A stretch of DNA of 43,792 nt from an uncultured Synergistales bacterium (GCA_905235735.1 CAJOMU010000013.1:1-43792), one strand, 5' to 3'. Positions 25,509-32,364 are shown, numbered from the stretch's first letter. Numbers and translations: made by a program. Notes: a model not told the origin generated them from the letters alone.

Positions 25509-26741
25509 TTATATTACGGCATTGCGGCCAAGAAGATAATCTATATACTGACGCGCTGCTCTTCCTGACATTCCTCCGTGTCTTATCTCCCATGCATCAG
25601 AACCTTTCAGAAGCTCTTTGTCATTCACATCAAGCCCTGCATTTTTCGCTAGCGTCAGAACAATCTCATGATACGTTTTCCGTGATGGGCTGGAATAATT
25701 TATCGCAACTCCGAAACGTGATGCCAGTGATAATTTTTCTTCAACCGTATCTGACCTGTGAATATCTCCATCATGTTCCATGTCTGCACGATCCTTCCAG
25801 ACCTCGCGCACTATGTGCCTGCGGTTTGATGTCGCATATATAAGCACGTTATCAGGACGCGATTCGATTCCGCCTTCGATTACTGCCTTCAGATATTTAT
25901 ATTCGCTCTCGTTCTCCTCAAATGATAAGTCATCAATGAACAGGACAAAGTAATAGTTCCTTCGTCTTAACCTCTCCGTGATGTGCAATATATCCCTGAA
26001 CTGATGCCTGAAGATTTCAACTGCACGCAGTCCTCTCGATGCATATTCATTCAGGAGTGCCTTTATGCTCGTTGATTTTCCTGTGCCTCCATCACCGTAA
26101 AGCAGAACGTTATTTGCTGGTCTTCCTGAGATGAAAGCCTCAGTGTTAGCTGTGAGTTCTTTCTTCTGAACCTCATAGCCAATGATGTCTGATAGTTTTA
26201 CATCGCCAACGTTCTCGTCAGGTACGGGTACAAATTCATCTTCATCACTGTCAAACCTGAAAGCCTTATTGAATGCTAGGTTGCCTGCACCATGACGCTT
26301 ATAGAAGTTCGTAACGATGTCATAGATTTTCTGCGATGAATGAACTTCTGCTATTGCCTTGCTGATTTCACATATGGGTGAACCGTTCTCCTCATTACCA
26401 GTGAAGTTATTGACATAATGCATGTGTTCGTTTTTCAGGTTGAAGAGTTTCAGGAACGCTTCAAAGTCATGTAACGCTACATCCTTTAGTGATCCTGAAG
26501 GTGAATCTCTTCGTTCGCATGAGAGCGAGAAGAAATTTTCATTTGTGAGCATGAAGTGTGTCAGGTAATTCTGCCAGATATTTCCCGATGCATAATTATG
26601 TTTGTACGCCTGAGATATTAATTCGTGAAAGAGTATGTGAATCTCAAGCACATCATTATTGCTGAATGCCGTGCTCAATCTTACAATGAGGCTGTCTGCC
26701 GGAGCTTCATATGCGAGAAGTACACACATGTAATGAATCAA
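25509..26741 (-). CDS. DUF815 family AAA+ ATPase
   Basis: The C-terminal half (about residues 180-405) is an ATPase with Walker A GDGGTGKST at 216-224 and Walker B FVLFIDDLSF near 263, then an arginine-bearing NVLIYATSNRRHIV segment and HGGMSGRAARQYIDYL near the end; these match DUF815. The N-terminal half is helical and unrecognised. DUF815 proteins are uncharacterised. The start is uncertain: TTG at 26741 lies only 1 base from GGAGG, and ATG at 26729 is 13 bases from it. It begins 27 bases after the stop of the upstream secreted-protein gene. Confidence 0.85.
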   Translation of the reverse strand: MIHYMCVLLAYEAPADSLIVRLSTAFSNNDVLEIHILFHELISQAYKHNYASGNIWQNYLTHFMLTNENFFSLSCERRDSPSGSLKDVALHDFEAFLKLFNLKNEHMHYVNNFTGNEENGSPICEISKAIAEVHSSQKIYDIVTNFYKRHGAGNLAFNKAFRFDSDEDEFVPVPDENVGDVKLSDIIGYEVQKKELTANTEAFISGRPANNVLLYGDGGTGKSTSIKALLNEYASRGLRAVEIFRHQFRDILHITERLRRRNYYFVLFIDDLSFEENESEYKYLKAVIEGGIESRPDNVLIYATSNRRHIVREVWKDRADMEHDGDIHRSDTVEEKLSLASRFGVAINYSSPSRKTYHEIVLTLAKNAGLDVNDKELLKGSDAWEIRHGGMSGRAARQYIDYLLGRNAVI

Positions 26742-26768: not shown

Positions 26769-27518
26769 CTATTTCGTGATTCTAATTTCACCAAGCCAGT
26801 AATATCCCCATGCTTTTGCCTGCTGTGCAAGTATCGGCATGTCCTGTTCGTACCATTTGAAGCCTGAGCCGCGTATGAATCTTCTGATGTTCGTGTATTC
26901 CCGTCTGATTGCGTTTACGGGTGTATGTGATTCCTGAACGTCCAGCTGATACCATGTTCTGCCTGTCCATATGTAAAGTACTTTCGGATTATTTCCTTTC
27001 CATGCAATCGGTGCAGTTGGGTTATTCAGCACTCCTATTCTGTCGACACTTCCCTTCCAGTTTCCTATGGCCATGAATGCATGGTTATATGTCCAGTCGG
27101 GAATATATGTTGAATGAGTTTGACCTTGTGCCAACTGTGAACGCGAAAGTCCGTTTTGACGTACAGCAAACATCTCTTCTGTTGGAAGTTTACGAAGCTC
27201 CGAAATCTGAACATCTGAAATCCATTTCGTTATGCCCGCCATTGAAGGCACAATTGATCCGACAACATAATTCGTTGCAACGAGATTAGGCCCTTCTGCA
27301 TTGCCGTATACCCACATTCCATCGTGATTCTTCTTCACTGGATAACCGTCTAATGTAACGTACCAGCCTTTAGGCATATTGTATGGTTTGTAGACATAGA
27401 AAGTCATTCCAGAATATGCAGAGTTCGGAACGAGGAGAGGTTCAGTAACATAAAGTTTAGCTTCCGATTCGTTGCATACGAGACATAACACAACTGCGAA
27501 TAAAAATATTTTCTTCAT
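26769..27518 (-). CDS. Secreted protein of unrecognised family, paralogue 2
   Basis: No family recognised. The 249-aa product has a signal peptide (cleavage likely after SEA, residue 20). The N-terminal part shares with its neighbour the pattern FYV.KP.N.P..(W/F)YVT.DGY.V and WxYGxAE; the C-terminal part shares FMAIG.W..SVDRIGV, AWKG..P.V.Y.WTG..W.QLD and a WGY.W.G end. The conserved aromatic residues and glycines suggest two small beta-rich modules. It overlaps the stop of the upstream paralogue by one base (TAATG), so translation is coupled. A periplasmic or surface location is inferred. Confidence 0.8.
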   Translation of the reverse strand: MKKIFLFAVVLCLVCNESEAKLYVTEPLLVPNSAYSGMTFYVYKPYNMPKGWYVTLDGYPVKKNHDGMWVYGNAEGPNLVATNYVVGSIVPSMAGITKWISDVQISELRKLPTEEMFAVRQNGLSRSQLAQGQTHSTYIPDWTYNHAFMAIGNWKGSVDRIGVLNNPTAPIAWKGNNPKVLYIWTGRTWYQLDVQESHTPVNAIRREYTNIRRFIRGSGFKWYEQDMPILAQQAKAWGYYWLGEIRITK

Positions 27519-28279
27519 TATCGTAACCTCCCGTTAGGTATCACGAGACCAATCCATTGATAGCCCCATTGATGTGCGTATTGTGCGAGAACTCTCGAAT
27601 CATCATCAGTCCAGTGAAGTGCATTCGTTCGGTTAATCTCAATCGTCAAATCATAGAGTTCACGTCTTAATGTGCTTATTGCTGTAATGTGCTTGCCCTG
27701 TGAATCAAGCTGTTTCCATCGCATACCAGTCCAAGCATAAATCACTTCAGGATAATCACCCTTCCACGCAACTGGTATTGAAGGTTTGCTAGTTACACCG
27801 ATTCTATCTACGCTCTTCTGCCATCGTCCAATTGCCATGAAGTTTGTGTTACCGCTCCAGTTAGGCGCAACTGGCTCTCTGTATATCGGTGATTCAGGAG
27901 GGATATAGACTATCGTATTTCGGTCAACAGGTCTTCCGCTAACGCTAGCAGGAGATGTATTGAGTATTGGAGCAACTGAAGATATTTTCGTGTTATATGG
28001 CTTCAGTCTCACTACAGAAGGAATCACTGAACCCACAACATAACCTGTCCTTATTATGCCGTTTGATTCCGCAGAGCCATAATGCCATATGCCTCTTTCA
28101 TCCTTGTAGACTAGATAACCGTCGTAAGTAACATAGAAGTCGCGGGGAACATTGACGGGTTTGTGAACGTAAAAGTTCATCGAGTGATAAGCAGGCTGAT
28201 TGACGAGCATAGATTCAGCTCCGAAAGATGAATCACAAATCATCATGGCCAGGAATAACAGAGCAAATATTTTCTTCAT
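27518..28279 (-). CDS. Secreted protein of unrecognised family, paralogue 1
   Basis: No family recognised. The 253-aa product has a signal peptide (cleavage likely after SFG, near residue 20). It aligns with paralogue 2 over both ends: FYVHKPVNVPRDFYVTYDGY near residue 35, WHYGSAE near 65, FMAIGRWQKSVDRIGV and WKGDYPEVIYAWTGMRWKQLD in the second half. The middle (about residues 100-140) is less conserved and proline/serine-rich. It starts 16 bases after the TPR protein gene and shares its stop codon with the start of paralogue 2. A tandem duplication is the simplest origin. Confidence 0.8.
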   Translation of the reverse strand: MKKIFALLFLAMMICDSSFGAESMLVNQPAYHSMNFYVHKPVNVPRDFYVTYDGYLVYKDERGIWHYGSAESNGIIRTGYVVGSVIPSVVRLKPYNTKISSVAPILNTSPASVSGRPVDRNTIVYIPPESPIYREPVAPNWSGNTNFMAIGRWQKSVDRIGVTSKPSIPVAWKGDYPEVIYAWTGMRWKQLDSQGKHITAISTLRRELYDLTIEINRTNALHWTDDDSRVLAQYAHQWGYQWIGLVIPNGRLR

Positions 28280-28295
28280 GTCGAATCACCTCGCA

Positions 28296-29645
28296 TTAAT
28301 CTTGATTTCCTTGCCCTACAGGCGGAATTGATGTCTCAGATATAGTTCCCGGATCAGGTGCAAATTGTCCGACCGGCGGCAAATATTCCTGTCTCGGTAT
28401 TTGCCTCTGAGGTTCACGTTCAGGCTGTCTCTCAGGTTCTCTTTGTGTCTGCTGTATTGGCTGAGTTTCCTGCTGTCTTGAAGGCTGTCTTTGAGGCTCT
28501 CTCCGTACCTGCGGCTGCACTGGTCTAATATCAGTCGATGTAGTTCGAGTAGTTGTTGAACTTCGTCTTTGTACCTGAGTTCGTATCTGTGTTCTAGGCT
28601 GTGTTGATACCTTTGCAGTCGTAGTCTTCTTCTGCTGACGTACAACTCTTCTCGGTACTTCCGGCTGTTTCTTGGGCTGTGGTGTAGCTGAAGATTTCTT
28701 CGGCTGTTCTGATACTTTCGGTGCAGGAGGAGTTGTAACCCTCTGGCCAGGTGCAGGAGGAGTATACAGAGGCAAATCAACACGAATAATTCTGTCGCGG
28801 TCATTGTTTGATGATATATCGCGTACATCTGGTTCTCTATGTGCAATCTCAATATCTATGCTCTCTCTGCGTTCTGCATCAAGCGGCCCTTGAGGAGGCA
28901 CGTACACGAGGGATGTTCCGTCTTGCACATAAGGATCATTCGGTGAAGGAGGAACATACACGGCGGGATTCCATGAATCGCCATCAAGCGGAGTGCTTCC
29001 AGGTTCAGGAGGTGTGTACACTGGCACTCTGGGGATCACTGGGTCATTCGGTGCATCAGGAAAATTCGTGCTGTCCCGTCCAAACGGAGGAACTCTCGTA
29101 AAATTTCTGTCGCCTGTATCAACAGGATATACCCTCGCAGGACGTTTAGGATCCCATAACGGAGTCTTGTCGGGGTCATTAGGATAGTATGCAACTCTCG
29201 ATAAAGGTTCAAATGAAGGATTAATCTTCAGTGCCTTTGTGTAATAATACTGCGCCTCATGGAAACACCCTAACTTCTCATGCCACACACCATACCAGTA
29301 CCATACGTTTGCGTCATTCTTATCCGTGTTAATTGCATTGAGCAAATACGGTTTCGCCTCATTGTACCGTCCCTGATTGATCAGCGTTATTGCCTGCTGA
29401 AGTGAATTCGGTTTAGAAGGTGCTCTTGGTGTCGTCTTCTTTGGAGCAGGTTTCTTCGCTGGAGTTCTCTTCTTTGGAGCAGGTTTCTTCGCGGGAGTTT
29501 TCTTCTTGGGGGCGGGCTTCGATGGCTTAGGTTGAGTTTGAGACTGTTCGGGGTATGGCATGTACGGTGTACTGTCGTCATCTGCTGAGTATGACGGCGT
29601 TGCGAACATGGCCAGAAGCATAATAATCACTGCAATTCGTTTCAT
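28296..29645 (-). CDS. Secreted TPR protein with proline/lysine and proline/glutamine-rich regions
   Basis: The 449-aa product has a signal peptide (cleavage after SYS, about residue 20), then a basic region with an 11-residue repeat based on KKxTPAKKPAP, then about two TPR units (residues 80-150; YNEAKPYLLNAINTDKNDAN and YYYTKALKINPSFEP). The rest is low complexity: recurring VYTPPEPG, VYVPPSPN, VYVPPQG and LYTPPAPG boxes, then a long Pro/Gln/Arg-rich tail. This suggests an extended envelope-spanning or cell-wall-contacting protein with a TPR protein-binding module. A 178-aa open frame on the same strand is a shadow of the repeat-rich tail. Confidence 0.8.
   Translation of the reverse strand: MKRIAVIIMLLAMFATPSYSADDDSTPYMPYPEQSQTQPKPSKPAPKKKTPAKKPAPKKRTPAKKPAPKKTTPRAPSKPNSLQQAITLINQGRYNEAKPYLLNAINTDKNDANVWYWYGVWHEKLGCFHEAQYYYTKALKINPSFEPLSRVAYYPNDPDKTPLWDPKRPARVYPVDTGDRNFTRVPPFGRDSTNFPDAPNDPVIPRVPVYTPPEPGSTPLDGDSWNPAVYVPPSPNDPYVQDGTSLVYVPPQGPLDAERRESIDIEIAHREPDVRDISSNNDRDRIIRVDLPLYTPPAPGQRVTTPPAPKVSEQPKKSSATPQPKKQPEVPRRVVRQQKKTTTAKVSTQPRTQIRTQVQRRSSTTTRTTSTDIRPVQPQVRREPQRQPSRQQETQPIQQTQREPERQPEREPQRQIPRQEYLPPVGQFAPDPGTISETSIPPVGQGNQD
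29437..29520 (-). repeat. 33-base coding repeats (11-residue Lys/Pro unit)
   Basis: About two and a half tandem 33-base units in the TPR gene encode KKxTPAKKPAP, with copies nearly identical at the DNA level. Such repeats can change in number by slippage or recombination. Confidence 0.75.
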
Positions 29646-29652
29646 TCTAATA

Positions 29653-30696
29653 TCACTTCCCTGCTATTTTCTTCGTCTTCACTACCAAATCCTGAAGCGT
29701 TACAGGTTCTTTCCTGTTATCCTTAATCACTCTCACTACCGCGTTATCATCATAGACCTTAATCACTTTCACTTTGCCTATCGTCTTAGGCAGGACTGCA
29801 ATCGGATTCTCAGGGTCAACTGTAACATATGTATCCGAACGAATGACATCGAGAACTTCACCCACACGTACAGCATCACGATGACCGTTAGCGTATCTTC
29901 CAAGCGATATAATGTAGTCGCGCCGTCTGCGTGTAGAGTTTGCTGTTGGAGCGAGTATTCTTCCGACAGTCCGATATGAATCCGAAAAGTTATCGCGGGC
30001 TGTTAGTTCTGCATTCGGATCATTGCTTCGGATTGCATTGCGTACTTGTTCTATTGACTGACGATATGCTTCATTGATTGCATTCTTCAATGCCTGCCAG
30101 TAAGGAGTGCCTTGAAACTGTGCCCACGTTAAGCGGCTCATCTTCTGACCTGTGTATTTCCTATTCGTGAGGCCGAAAAGGTCTAAGCCTTCCTCAAATG
30201 GTATTCCTAAACCTGCAACTGCCGCATCAAAGAAGAACACATCCTCTGCTGAATCCAATGTGAAACGTCTATCTGTCCCTTTGACTGTACGAACCGCAAG
30301 CTCCTGAACACGTCTTGTGTCAAAAACTCTGAGACGAACAAGAAATTTCGCAGATTCCATTGTGCCGATAACATGCTTGTCCTTCATTGTCGCAGAATAC
30401 AATTCAAGCTGTAACGCCATATCATCACCGCGTCTTGAACCTGATAACCATCGATTCATTGCTGCCTCATCGAGAACACGTGCATCAATCATCGGTGATT
30501 TCTTGCAGACTTCCTCAAGGTAATTCGACATCTTCTGTTCAAGAACGTTATACGGATAATATTTGCTCTCCCATATCTGAAGTTCCGTTGAATTTATCGT
30601 CGGGAATATCACCACCGAAATCCGACGCTGATTACCTGCCTCTGAAACTCCCAATGAGAGAAGCAGAATCAAAATTGCATACAGAAACTTCTTCAT
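29653..30696 (-). CDS. Secreted FlgT/CsgG-like protein
   Basis: The 347-aa product has a signal peptide (cleavage after SEA, about residue 20), followed by RRISVVIFPTINST, which resembles the start of CsgG/FlgT-type periplasmic domains. The C-terminal part (about 260-347: RVGEVLDVIRSDTYVTVDPE, then TIGKVKVIKVYDDNAVVRVI) resembles the C-terminal beta domain of FlgT-like proteins. The match is by eye only and moderate. It may anchor or assemble an envelope complex. Its ATG overlaps the TGA of the upstream gene by 4 bases (ATGA), and the TPR gene follows 7 bases downstream. Confidence 0.7.
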   Translation of the reverse strand: MKKFLYAILILLLSLGVSEAGNQRRISVVIFPTINSTELQIWESKYYPYNVLEQKMSNYLEEVCKKSPMIDARVLDEAAMNRWLSGSRRGDDMALQLELYSATMKDKHVIGTMESAKFLVRLRVFDTRRVQELAVRTVKGTDRRFTLDSAEDVFFFDAAVAGLGIPFEEGLDLFGLTNRKYTGQKMSRLTWAQFQGTPYWQALKNAINEAYRQSIEQVRNAIRSNDPNAELTARDNFSDSYRTVGRILAPTANSTRRRRDYIISLGRYANGHRDAVRVGEVLDVIRSDTYVTVDPENPIAVLPKTIGKVKVIKVYDDNAVVRVIKDNRKEPVTLQDLVVKTKKIAGK

Positions 30697-31865
30697 GCCT
30701 TCAGCCCCGCAAATTTATTCACGTACACTTTGATTGTCTCGTACCATTCCTTGAACTGTTTCGCCCACAACAAACGCGTAATCGTGAAGAAATCATCTTC
30801 TGTTCCGAACGTATCACTCTTCAAAGCCTTCTTGTATGTCTCAGTCGGAAGCATGATTATCATATGTCCTGTATGTCTTGCAGTCTGCATTCTCGGATCA
30901 CATCCGAAAGCCGTCATTCCCTCATCAGGATTCTCAAAGAATGTTACTCTGTAGGGTACATCTCCTAAAGTGCCTGTGTTGAAATCAATTCGTCTTGAAC
31001 GTGCAAATCCTCTCTCCTGTAATTCCTTCTCACTGTCCATAACGTAAAGTATCTCTATGTCATCGAGTATGTAATAATGTCTCACGTATGCGGTCATCTT
31101 GTGGCCAAGTTTGAGCAAATCTGCATCATGAAGTGAAATTTTCTTCACGGGAACTTTCATTGCTGTCTGTCCGATTTCCTTCGGTGGTTTCTTCTCGCCT
31201 TCACTCCATATTTCATCGGAGGTCTTTGTTCCGTCAGCACCGCAGAATGAAAATCCCAATAGCATTGCCGCAGCTGTAACTCGAATCGTATTGTGCCAGC
31301 GTTCAGGGTTCACTTCCTTCAATGCAACCGTTACACCTGTCTTCAGCAAACCGTCTGTGCTTCTCATTGCGGGACTTGTAATTTTCAGCTTATCCTCTGA
31401 AATAACCGCCGCTTCCTCATCGCTGACCTGAAAGAACGGCAGGAATTTATTTTTGTCTTTGACGGAACAATCTGCAATCCACAATGACGAACGTTTTTCT
31501 TCGGACATCAATGCAAGCTCTGAAGGTGTCATTATGGTCTCAGGTCGTGCGAGTGCTTTTTCGAGGTCGAGTGCGAGTTTCAGAAATTTGAGCTTGAAGT
31601 TCGTGCGTGCGTAATATTCCGTGAGTATCTTCTGGATTGCTGGTTCAAAGTCCTTCACTGTGTACGTGAAAGTCTCGCCTCTATCCTTGCCATTAATCGC
31701 AAGTGTTCGGTCTTGCTTCTCGACCCACGAAATATGAATCAATTTTCGTGAATTCTTGTTCTTATTCATGACTGAAAGACGCGGAGTTTTTCCTCTTGTC
31801 CACATTTGAAGTGCGAGATTTGAATCTACATCGCATGTACTGATTATCTTTCCTTGTTCTTCCAT
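30693..31865 (-). CDS. Conserved-looking cytoplasmic protein, first gene of the envelope cluster
   Basis: No family recognised. The 390-aa product has no signal peptide or clear membrane helix (one mildly hydrophobic stretch near 205, TAAAMLLGFSFCGADG). It has charged N- and C-terminal parts and a KFKEWYETIKVYVNKF helix at the C-terminus. The ATG at 31865 has an AAAGGAG site about 12 bases upstream. It overlaps the FlgT/CsgG-like gene by 4 bases, so the two are probably translationally coupled. As the only apparent cytoplasmic member before the DUF815 ATPase it could regulate or assemble the secreted proteins; this is speculation. Confidence 0.75.
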   Translation of the reverse strand: MEEQGKIISTCDVDSNLALQMWTRGKTPRLSVMNKNKNSRKLIHISWVEKQDRTLAINGKDRGETFTYTVKDFEPAIQKILTEYYARTNFKLKFLKLALDLEKALARPETIMTPSELALMSEEKRSSLWIADCSVKDKNKFLPFFQVSDEEAAVISEDKLKITSPAMRSTDGLLKTGVTVALKEVNPERWHNTIRVTAAAMLLGFSFCGADGTKTSDEIWSEGEKKPPKEIGQTAMKVPVKKISLHDADLLKLGHKMTAYVRHYYILDDIEILYVMDSEKELQERGFARSRRIDFNTGTLGDVPYRVTFFENPDEGMTAFGCDPRMQTARHTGHMIIMLPTETYKKALKSDTFGTEDDFFTITRLLWAKQFKEWYETIKVYVNKFAGLKA

Positions 31866-31917: not shown

Positions 31918-31943
31918 ATTATATCTCACAATTAATTTCGCAA
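31918..31943 (-). promoter_or_regulatory. Possible promoter of the envelope cluster
   Basis: On the minus strand TATAAT lies at 31923-31918, about 50 bases before the ATG. The nearest -35-like hexamer (TTGCGA, 31943-31938) is only 14 bases away, so the -35 is doubtful. Confidence 0.45.
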
Positions 31944-31953
31944 ATATTCTGTA

Positions 31954-31982
31954 TTGTCTTTAACACAAAAAATTTTTACAAT
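31954..31982 (+). promoter_or_regulatory. Promoter of the thioredoxin-like gene
   Basis: TTGTCT (31954-31959), a 17-base spacer and TACAAT (31977-31982) form a good sigma-70 promoter 35 bases before the ATG at 32017. Confidence 0.7.
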
Positions 31983-32016
31983 GCAATTATCAAAATCAAA
32001 AAGGGAGTGTGTAAAT

Positions 32017-32364
32017 ATGAAACAGTCTGCAAAAATCATTTTCGCGTTCGTTCTTGTGTTCGTGTTATGCTCATCTGCATTTGCTGCTCTTCCTTCGATT
32101 ACCATGCTGTCAACTAAAACGTGTCCTGCATGTGAACAGATGATGAGGGTTCTTGATGAATTGAAAACGAAATATGGTAATTCAATTGAAGCGAGCCTTA
32201 TATATCTTGAGGAGCATCCAGACATCGCGAAGAAATATGATGTTCGTTATGTTCCGATGCTGATTTTCAAGAATGCCAACGGACAAGAGATTGCGCGTGA
32301 AATTGGGTACAAACCATTGAAGAACGTTCTTGAAGTATTCAGGAAAGCAGGAGTAAAGATTTAG
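32017..32364 (+). CDS. Secreted thioredoxin-like protein
   Basis: The 115-aa product has a signal peptide (cleavage after AFA, residue 23) and a thioredoxin fold with a CPAC active site (Cys36 and Cys39), then the cis-proline segment RYVPMLIFKNANG and IGYKP. It probably reduces or exchanges disulfides outside the cytoplasm. The CPAC centre differs from the CGPC of cytoplasmic thioredoxin. The ATG at 32017 has an AAGGGAG site 8 bases upstream; a longer frame from 31954 would begin inside the promoter. It is divergent from the envelope cluster, whose secreted proteins contain few cysteines, so a direct link is not obvious. Confidence 0.85.
   Translation: MKQSAKIIFAFVLVFVLCSSAFAALPSITMLSTKTCPACEQMMRVLDELKTKYGNSIEASLIYLEEHPDIAKKYDVRYVPMLIFKNANGQEIAREIGYKPLKNVLEVFRKAGVKI

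Follow-up and report, generated by a model that had tools for sequence, protein, structure and literature searches.

A conserved Synergistota gene cluster with a FlgT homologue and its co-occurrence with flagella

Five minus-strand genes that mostly encode secreted proteins lie packed together in a 43,792-nucleotide stretch of DNA from an uncultured Synergistales bacterium (GCA_905235735.1, CAJOMU010000013.1:1-43792; hereafter the window), and the question that they raise is what they build. The genome (Synergistota) comprises 2.1 Mb in 41 contigs, and its closest named relatives are Synergistaceae/Fretibacterium metagenome-assembled genomes (MAGs) from rumen and gut. A preliminary description of the window had read these genes, together with a neighbouring DUF815 ATPase, as a dedicated envelope assembly without a known match. 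The labels cytA, csgB, tprC, secD and secE are provisional; csgB is not a curli gene, and secD and secE are not the translocon genes.

Cluster layout and conservation of gene order

The five open reading frames (ORFs) were found where the preliminary description had placed them (Table 1), with the same junctions, which in gene order are a 4-base ATGA overlap (30693-30696), gaps of 7 and 16 bases and a 1-base TAATG overlap (27518); a further 27 bases separate secE from the DUF815 gene. Its count of four signal peptides among the five proteins is likewise supported, as genes 2-5 present hydrophobic, signal-peptide-like N-termini when read by eye, with no evident lipobox, and its recognition of two secreted paralogues agrees with the 39% identity shared by secD and secE. 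The cluster genes are under purifying selection, with dN/dS values of ~0.07-0.20 against the nearest relative.

Table 1 Features of the cluster and its surroundings, in window coordinates
Feature	Position	Strand	Description
Gene 1, cytA	30693-31865	-	390 aa, no signal peptide, no known family
Gene 2, csgB	29653-30696	-	347 aa, secreted FlgT homologue; N-terminal CsgG/TolB-like region and FlgT_C (residues ~271-340)
Gene 3, tprC	28296-29645	-	449 aa, secreted TPR protein; long Pro/Gln/Arg-rich tail
Gene 4, secD	27518-28279	-	253 aa, secreted; paralogue of gene 5
Gene 5, secE	26769-27518	-	249 aa, secreted; N-terminal beta domain and Trp-rich C-terminal alpha/beta domain, new family
DUF815 gene	25509-26741	-	PF05673, E 7.7e-88; 36 bases before gatC-gatA-gatB
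Candidate operon promoter, -10 element TATAAT	31918..31923	-	~55 bases upstream of cytA
Thioredoxin-like gene	31954-32364	+	Secreted; divergent upstream of cytA, retained in much of the genus

Conservation of gene order, a check proposed with the preliminary description, was found both within the genus, where the five-gene order is repeated in the loci of genus-mates wherever the contig or flank is long enough, and beyond it, where a csgB-tprC-secE core is kept through much of the order at varying chromosomal sites. Genes 2, 3 and 5 are an old conserved core, in which tprC comes after csgB through most of the order. cytA lies next to csgB in 36 of the 38 genomes of the genus and in 0 of the 34 outside genomes checked, where it sits elsewhere in the genome; it joined the operon late, and in this genus alone. 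secD evolves faster than secE and looks like a lineage-specific duplicate. In family f2 (L070, L074 and L093), the TPR protein and the secE C-terminal domain form one polypeptide, and this fusion points to a functional link between tprC and secE. A weak FlgT_C match (6e-4 to 7e-4) is present in the TPR protein encoded next to csgB in family f11. An ORF downstream of the TPR-secE fusion at another locus (L072:5892-7124, minus strand) combines a signal-peptide-like segment, a FlgT_C match and TPR-like repeats, and many genomes across the phylum have similar additional FlgT_C ORFs, ~480-520 aa long.

Neighbours of csgB and cytA in distant families are ordinary and varying (sir2, a permease, a PEP-utilising enzyme, a chaperonin, typA, DUF72), and gene neighbourhood was therefore set aside there as an uninformative guide to function. 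In several families (L059, L069, L128, L129 and L130), the FlgT-like gene directly adjoins one for a sir2 deacetylase, also where the surroundings otherwise differ. Upstream of cytA, a TGnGnTATAAT-like, sigma-70-like sequence is common to the genus, and no sigma-28 promoter was seen at this position. A generic promoter scan performed no better than chance, so that the candidate -10 element owes its status solely to this conservation.

Protein families and the relationship of csgB to FlgT

The product of gene 2 is homologous to FlgT. A Pfam search found FlgT_C (PF16538) in all 38 csgB orthologues (best E 1e-17), and this domain exceeded the cut-off of 27 bits in 87 of 151 Synergistota genomes, reaching 67.6 bits in a distant family, while the window's own csgB is marginal (25.7 bits in one search and 28.4 in another). 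An AlphaFold2 model of csgB (pLDDT 82.8), in which the N-terminal KK and following hydrophobic stretch coincide with a helix at residues 2-15, was compared by Foldseek with 350,542 PDB chains. Its two best matches were the flagellar LPHT ring (8z5n, 5e-13) and FlgT (3w1e, E 1.8e-12), with alignments of 340-344 columns that cover nearly the full length; the third-ranked match trails by ~five orders of magnitude. The global TM-score against FlgT is just 0.34, so the homology is seen domain by domain along the chain, without the domain arrangement being reproduced. A csgB profile gave no significant match among PDB sequences. The domain and predicted fold together give good support to the FlgT/CsgG-like character that the preliminary description had noted for this gene.

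The CsgG side of that remark admits another reading, in which the cluster would be a CsgG- or PelC-like outer-membrane station for export or assembly, curli-like or for polysaccharide secretion, in which the TPR protein acts as adaptor and the secreted proteins are substrates. The csgB model does match CsgG, PelC and GNA1162 (E ~1e-6 to 1e-5), lipoproteins whose fold recurs in part of the gene 2 protein, and such export systems commonly include TPR partners and small secreted proteins. However, the FlgT match is ~six orders of magnitude better than that to CsgG, gene 2 has no visible lipobox, and its orthologues uniformly carry FlgT_C, a flagellar Pfam family, with a CsgG Pfam match in 0 of 38; neither CsgG nor curli or Pel genes were seen by Pfam in the loci examined, and presence of the cluster tracks flagella (see below). 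Fold ranking, FlgT_C and flagellar co-occurrence led us to reject secretion of the CsgG/curli or Pel type, which we regard as improbable.

The other members of the cluster are less readily placed. cytA, predicted from its sequence to be soluble and cytoplasmic, found no relative in Pfam or the PDB, whether queried singly or as a 24-member profile, and a Pfam scan of all its members returned stray matches only. tprC has a TPR_2 match (1.1e-10) and roughly two TPRs, and secD matched no Pfam family. The secE model is confident (pLDDT 82.9, with ~90-98 in the C-terminal domain), but its fold search of the PDB gave nothing below E 1.5, and a secE profile had no significant match among PDB sequences. 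Residues W154, D159, W173, W184, W189 and W241 are invariant in the secE family, and the invariant Trp and Asp of the C-terminal domain suggest a putative binding surface.

Relatives of secE were also seen apart from the cluster. The window's genome encodes a third, divergent secE-like secreted protein (L140:9478-10305; G000:C26:14477-15304, plus strand), whose gene lies beside one for a LonB-like protease and one for a 297-aa product that matches no family, with weaker copies in other family members. In family f4 (L122-L126), a secE-like protein is found with a half-length relative away from csgB, and this pair adjoins a PDZ protein, a REC-GGDEF response-regulator diguanylate cyclase and two Band-7 proteins.

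Co-occurrence with flagella and the DUF815 neighbour

The genes were sought, along with flagellar markers, in the same 151 Synergistota genomes, and those in which flagellin (PF00669) or FlgH (PF02107) was found were taken as flagellated (112 flagellated, 39 not). Counts cover cytA, csgB, secE and DUF815; tprC was left out, as TPRs are too general. Among these genomes, cytA, csgB and secE occur only in flagellated ones. csgB is present in 104/112 flagellated and 0/39 non-flagellated genomes (Fisher p 1.5e-28, relatedness ignored), with corresponding values of 94/112 and 0/39 for cytA and of 86/112 and 0/39 for the secE family; outside the genus, csgB was found in 66 flagellated genomes and no non-flagellated one. 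DUF815, which served as a control, was present in 53 flagellated and 18 non-flagellated genomes (p=1, relatedness again ignored). Eight flagellated genomes lack csgB. Five of them, from four families (f5, f8, f10 and f12), are without genes 1, 2 and 5, and the module is therefore not required for every Synergistota flagellum; the other three still have cytA or secE, and their MAGs may be incomplete. Flagellin-type genes are numerous in individual genomes, with 6 matches in the window's genome (G000) and 20 in G088, and in both the flagellin domain often lies within open frames of ~800-1000 aa, indicating unusually long flagellins.

A pattern of this kind could also arise if the genes formed a general envelope-maintenance module and their link with flagella merely reflected shared ancestry, with reduced, non-flagellated lineages having lost both independently. 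The genomes are related, the co-occurrence counts take no account of the tree, and the cluster genes are unlinked to flagellar operons. Yet the non-flagellated genomes fall in at least five families (f1, f2, f3, f4 and f8), some of them inside genera with flagellated members (g2, g4 and g25), and none retains cytA, csgB or secE, whereas the DUF815 control lacks any such pattern. Two pairs of genomes illustrate the loss. Neighbouring genes are 93-98% identical between non-flagellated G015 and flagellated G018, and in G015 these neighbours are intact, with csgB reduced to its two ends by a 589-base deletion; in non-flagellated G023, on one contig, the flanks are as in flagellated G047 and csgB is absent. 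FlgT homology adds evidence independent of these distributions, and we consider a general maintenance role unlikely.

The preliminary description had counted the DUF815 ATPase as part of the cluster, and in its strongest form this would make the six genes one machine, with the AAA+ ATPase powering assembly of the secreted proteins. The short interval after gene 5 holds no predicted terminator, and in most loci from the genus DUF815 comes next after the cluster. However, L046, L051, L090 and L091 showed no DUF815 gene after secE, another ORF intervenes in L053, no DUF815 gene was found at the cluster outside the genus, and the 18 non-flagellated genomes that carry DUF815 do so without the cluster. 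With linkage inconstant and presence uncorrelated with flagella, DUF815 was excluded as a cluster part and is best described as a neighbour; a six-gene machine is very improbable. Within the genus, DUF815 is a usual neighbour of the cluster and of gatCAB alike.

What ties the cluster to the flagellum is the FlgT homologue in gene 2 together with presence in flagellated genomes only. The earlier view of a dedicated envelope assembly without a known match therefore holds in part: the set is conserved and mostly secreted, and as a whole it matches no single described system, but it is tied to a known machine. We consider it likely that the cluster encodes accessory, H-ring-like parts of the Synergistota flagellar basal body, including a FlgT homologue, a role inferred from homology and co-occurrence. 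Against this reading, no core flagellar gene was seen beside any cluster gene in the loci examined and, combined with the sigma-70-like element upstream of cytA, this does not support regulation within the flagellar hierarchy.

A possible H-ring-like structure in Synergistota

FlgT is a Sec-exported periplasmic protein that makes up the H-ring around the L/P rings and is needed for T-ring stability in Vibrio and Aeromonas (PMC4960245). As in the H-ring of Vibrio, Aeromonas and Shewanella, which is formed by FlgO, FlgP and FlgT (PMC4960245, PMC6375700), the Synergistota protein is a secreted FlgT with a CsgG/TolB-like part and FlgT_C, it occurs only with flagella, and the L ring is present. Unlike that system, it is accompanied by a TPR protein and a new secreted family; FlgO (PF17680) gave weak matches in 2 of the 151 genomes and is absent from the window's genome, and the loci examined showed no FlgP. 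A homologue outside Gammaproteobacteria has a precedent in the distant FlgT of Rhodobacter (Cereibacter) sphaeroides Fla1, which assembles into an H-ring, interacts with FlgH, FliL and MotB and is required for rotation (PMC7277832), but that flagellum is proteobacterial and its partners are FlgP and MotF, whereas here the phylum is another and the partners are unrelated. Periplasmic TPR motor scaffolds are known from PflA/PflB, which accompany the FlgP basal disk of Campylobacter (PMC12222027), and from MotC/MotK (PMC13023049), and these systems resemble the present one in having periplasmic TPR proteins and concentric rings of secreted proteins on the motor. tprC differs in its small number of TPRs and its Pro-rich tail, and its sequence was compared with these scaffolds at the level of Pfam TPR.

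Given the role of FlgT in the literature, the presence of FlgH in the window's genome and the absence of FlgO, the FlgT homologue would be expected to form a ring at the L ring, partnered by the TPR protein and secD/secE. After export by Sec, this homologue would assemble into a ring encircling the L ring (FlgH) beneath the outer membrane, as the H-ring does in Vibrio, Aeromonas and Rhodobacter. Its binding partners may be the TPR protein and secD/secE, which would extend the ring or connect it to stators or peptidoglycan, thereby occupying the place taken in Vibrio by FlgO/FlgP and MotX/MotY. cytA may be a separate flagellum-linked factor that was later brought under the cluster's promoter in this genus; as a guess, it could be a regulator, a chaperone or a motor modifier. 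Going further, we incline slightly towards the view that Synergistota flagella bear a phylum-specific outer ring or disk, with a FlgT homologue as its base and otherwise new parts (the TPR protein, secD/secE with no similar solved structure, and cytA).

In the literature consulted, FlgT and the H-ring have been described from Gammaproteobacteria and Rhodobacteraceae (PMC4960245, PMC7277832), and our literature search found no paper connecting FlgT with Synergistota. A FlgT homologue with new partners in another diderm phylum supplies named genes for a little-studied motor, gives the unannotated families of cytA and secD/secE a testable function and bears on the age of periplasmic flagellar rings. 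If the phylum-specific ring exists, FlgT-type rings would be older or more mobile than the proteobacterial record suggests.
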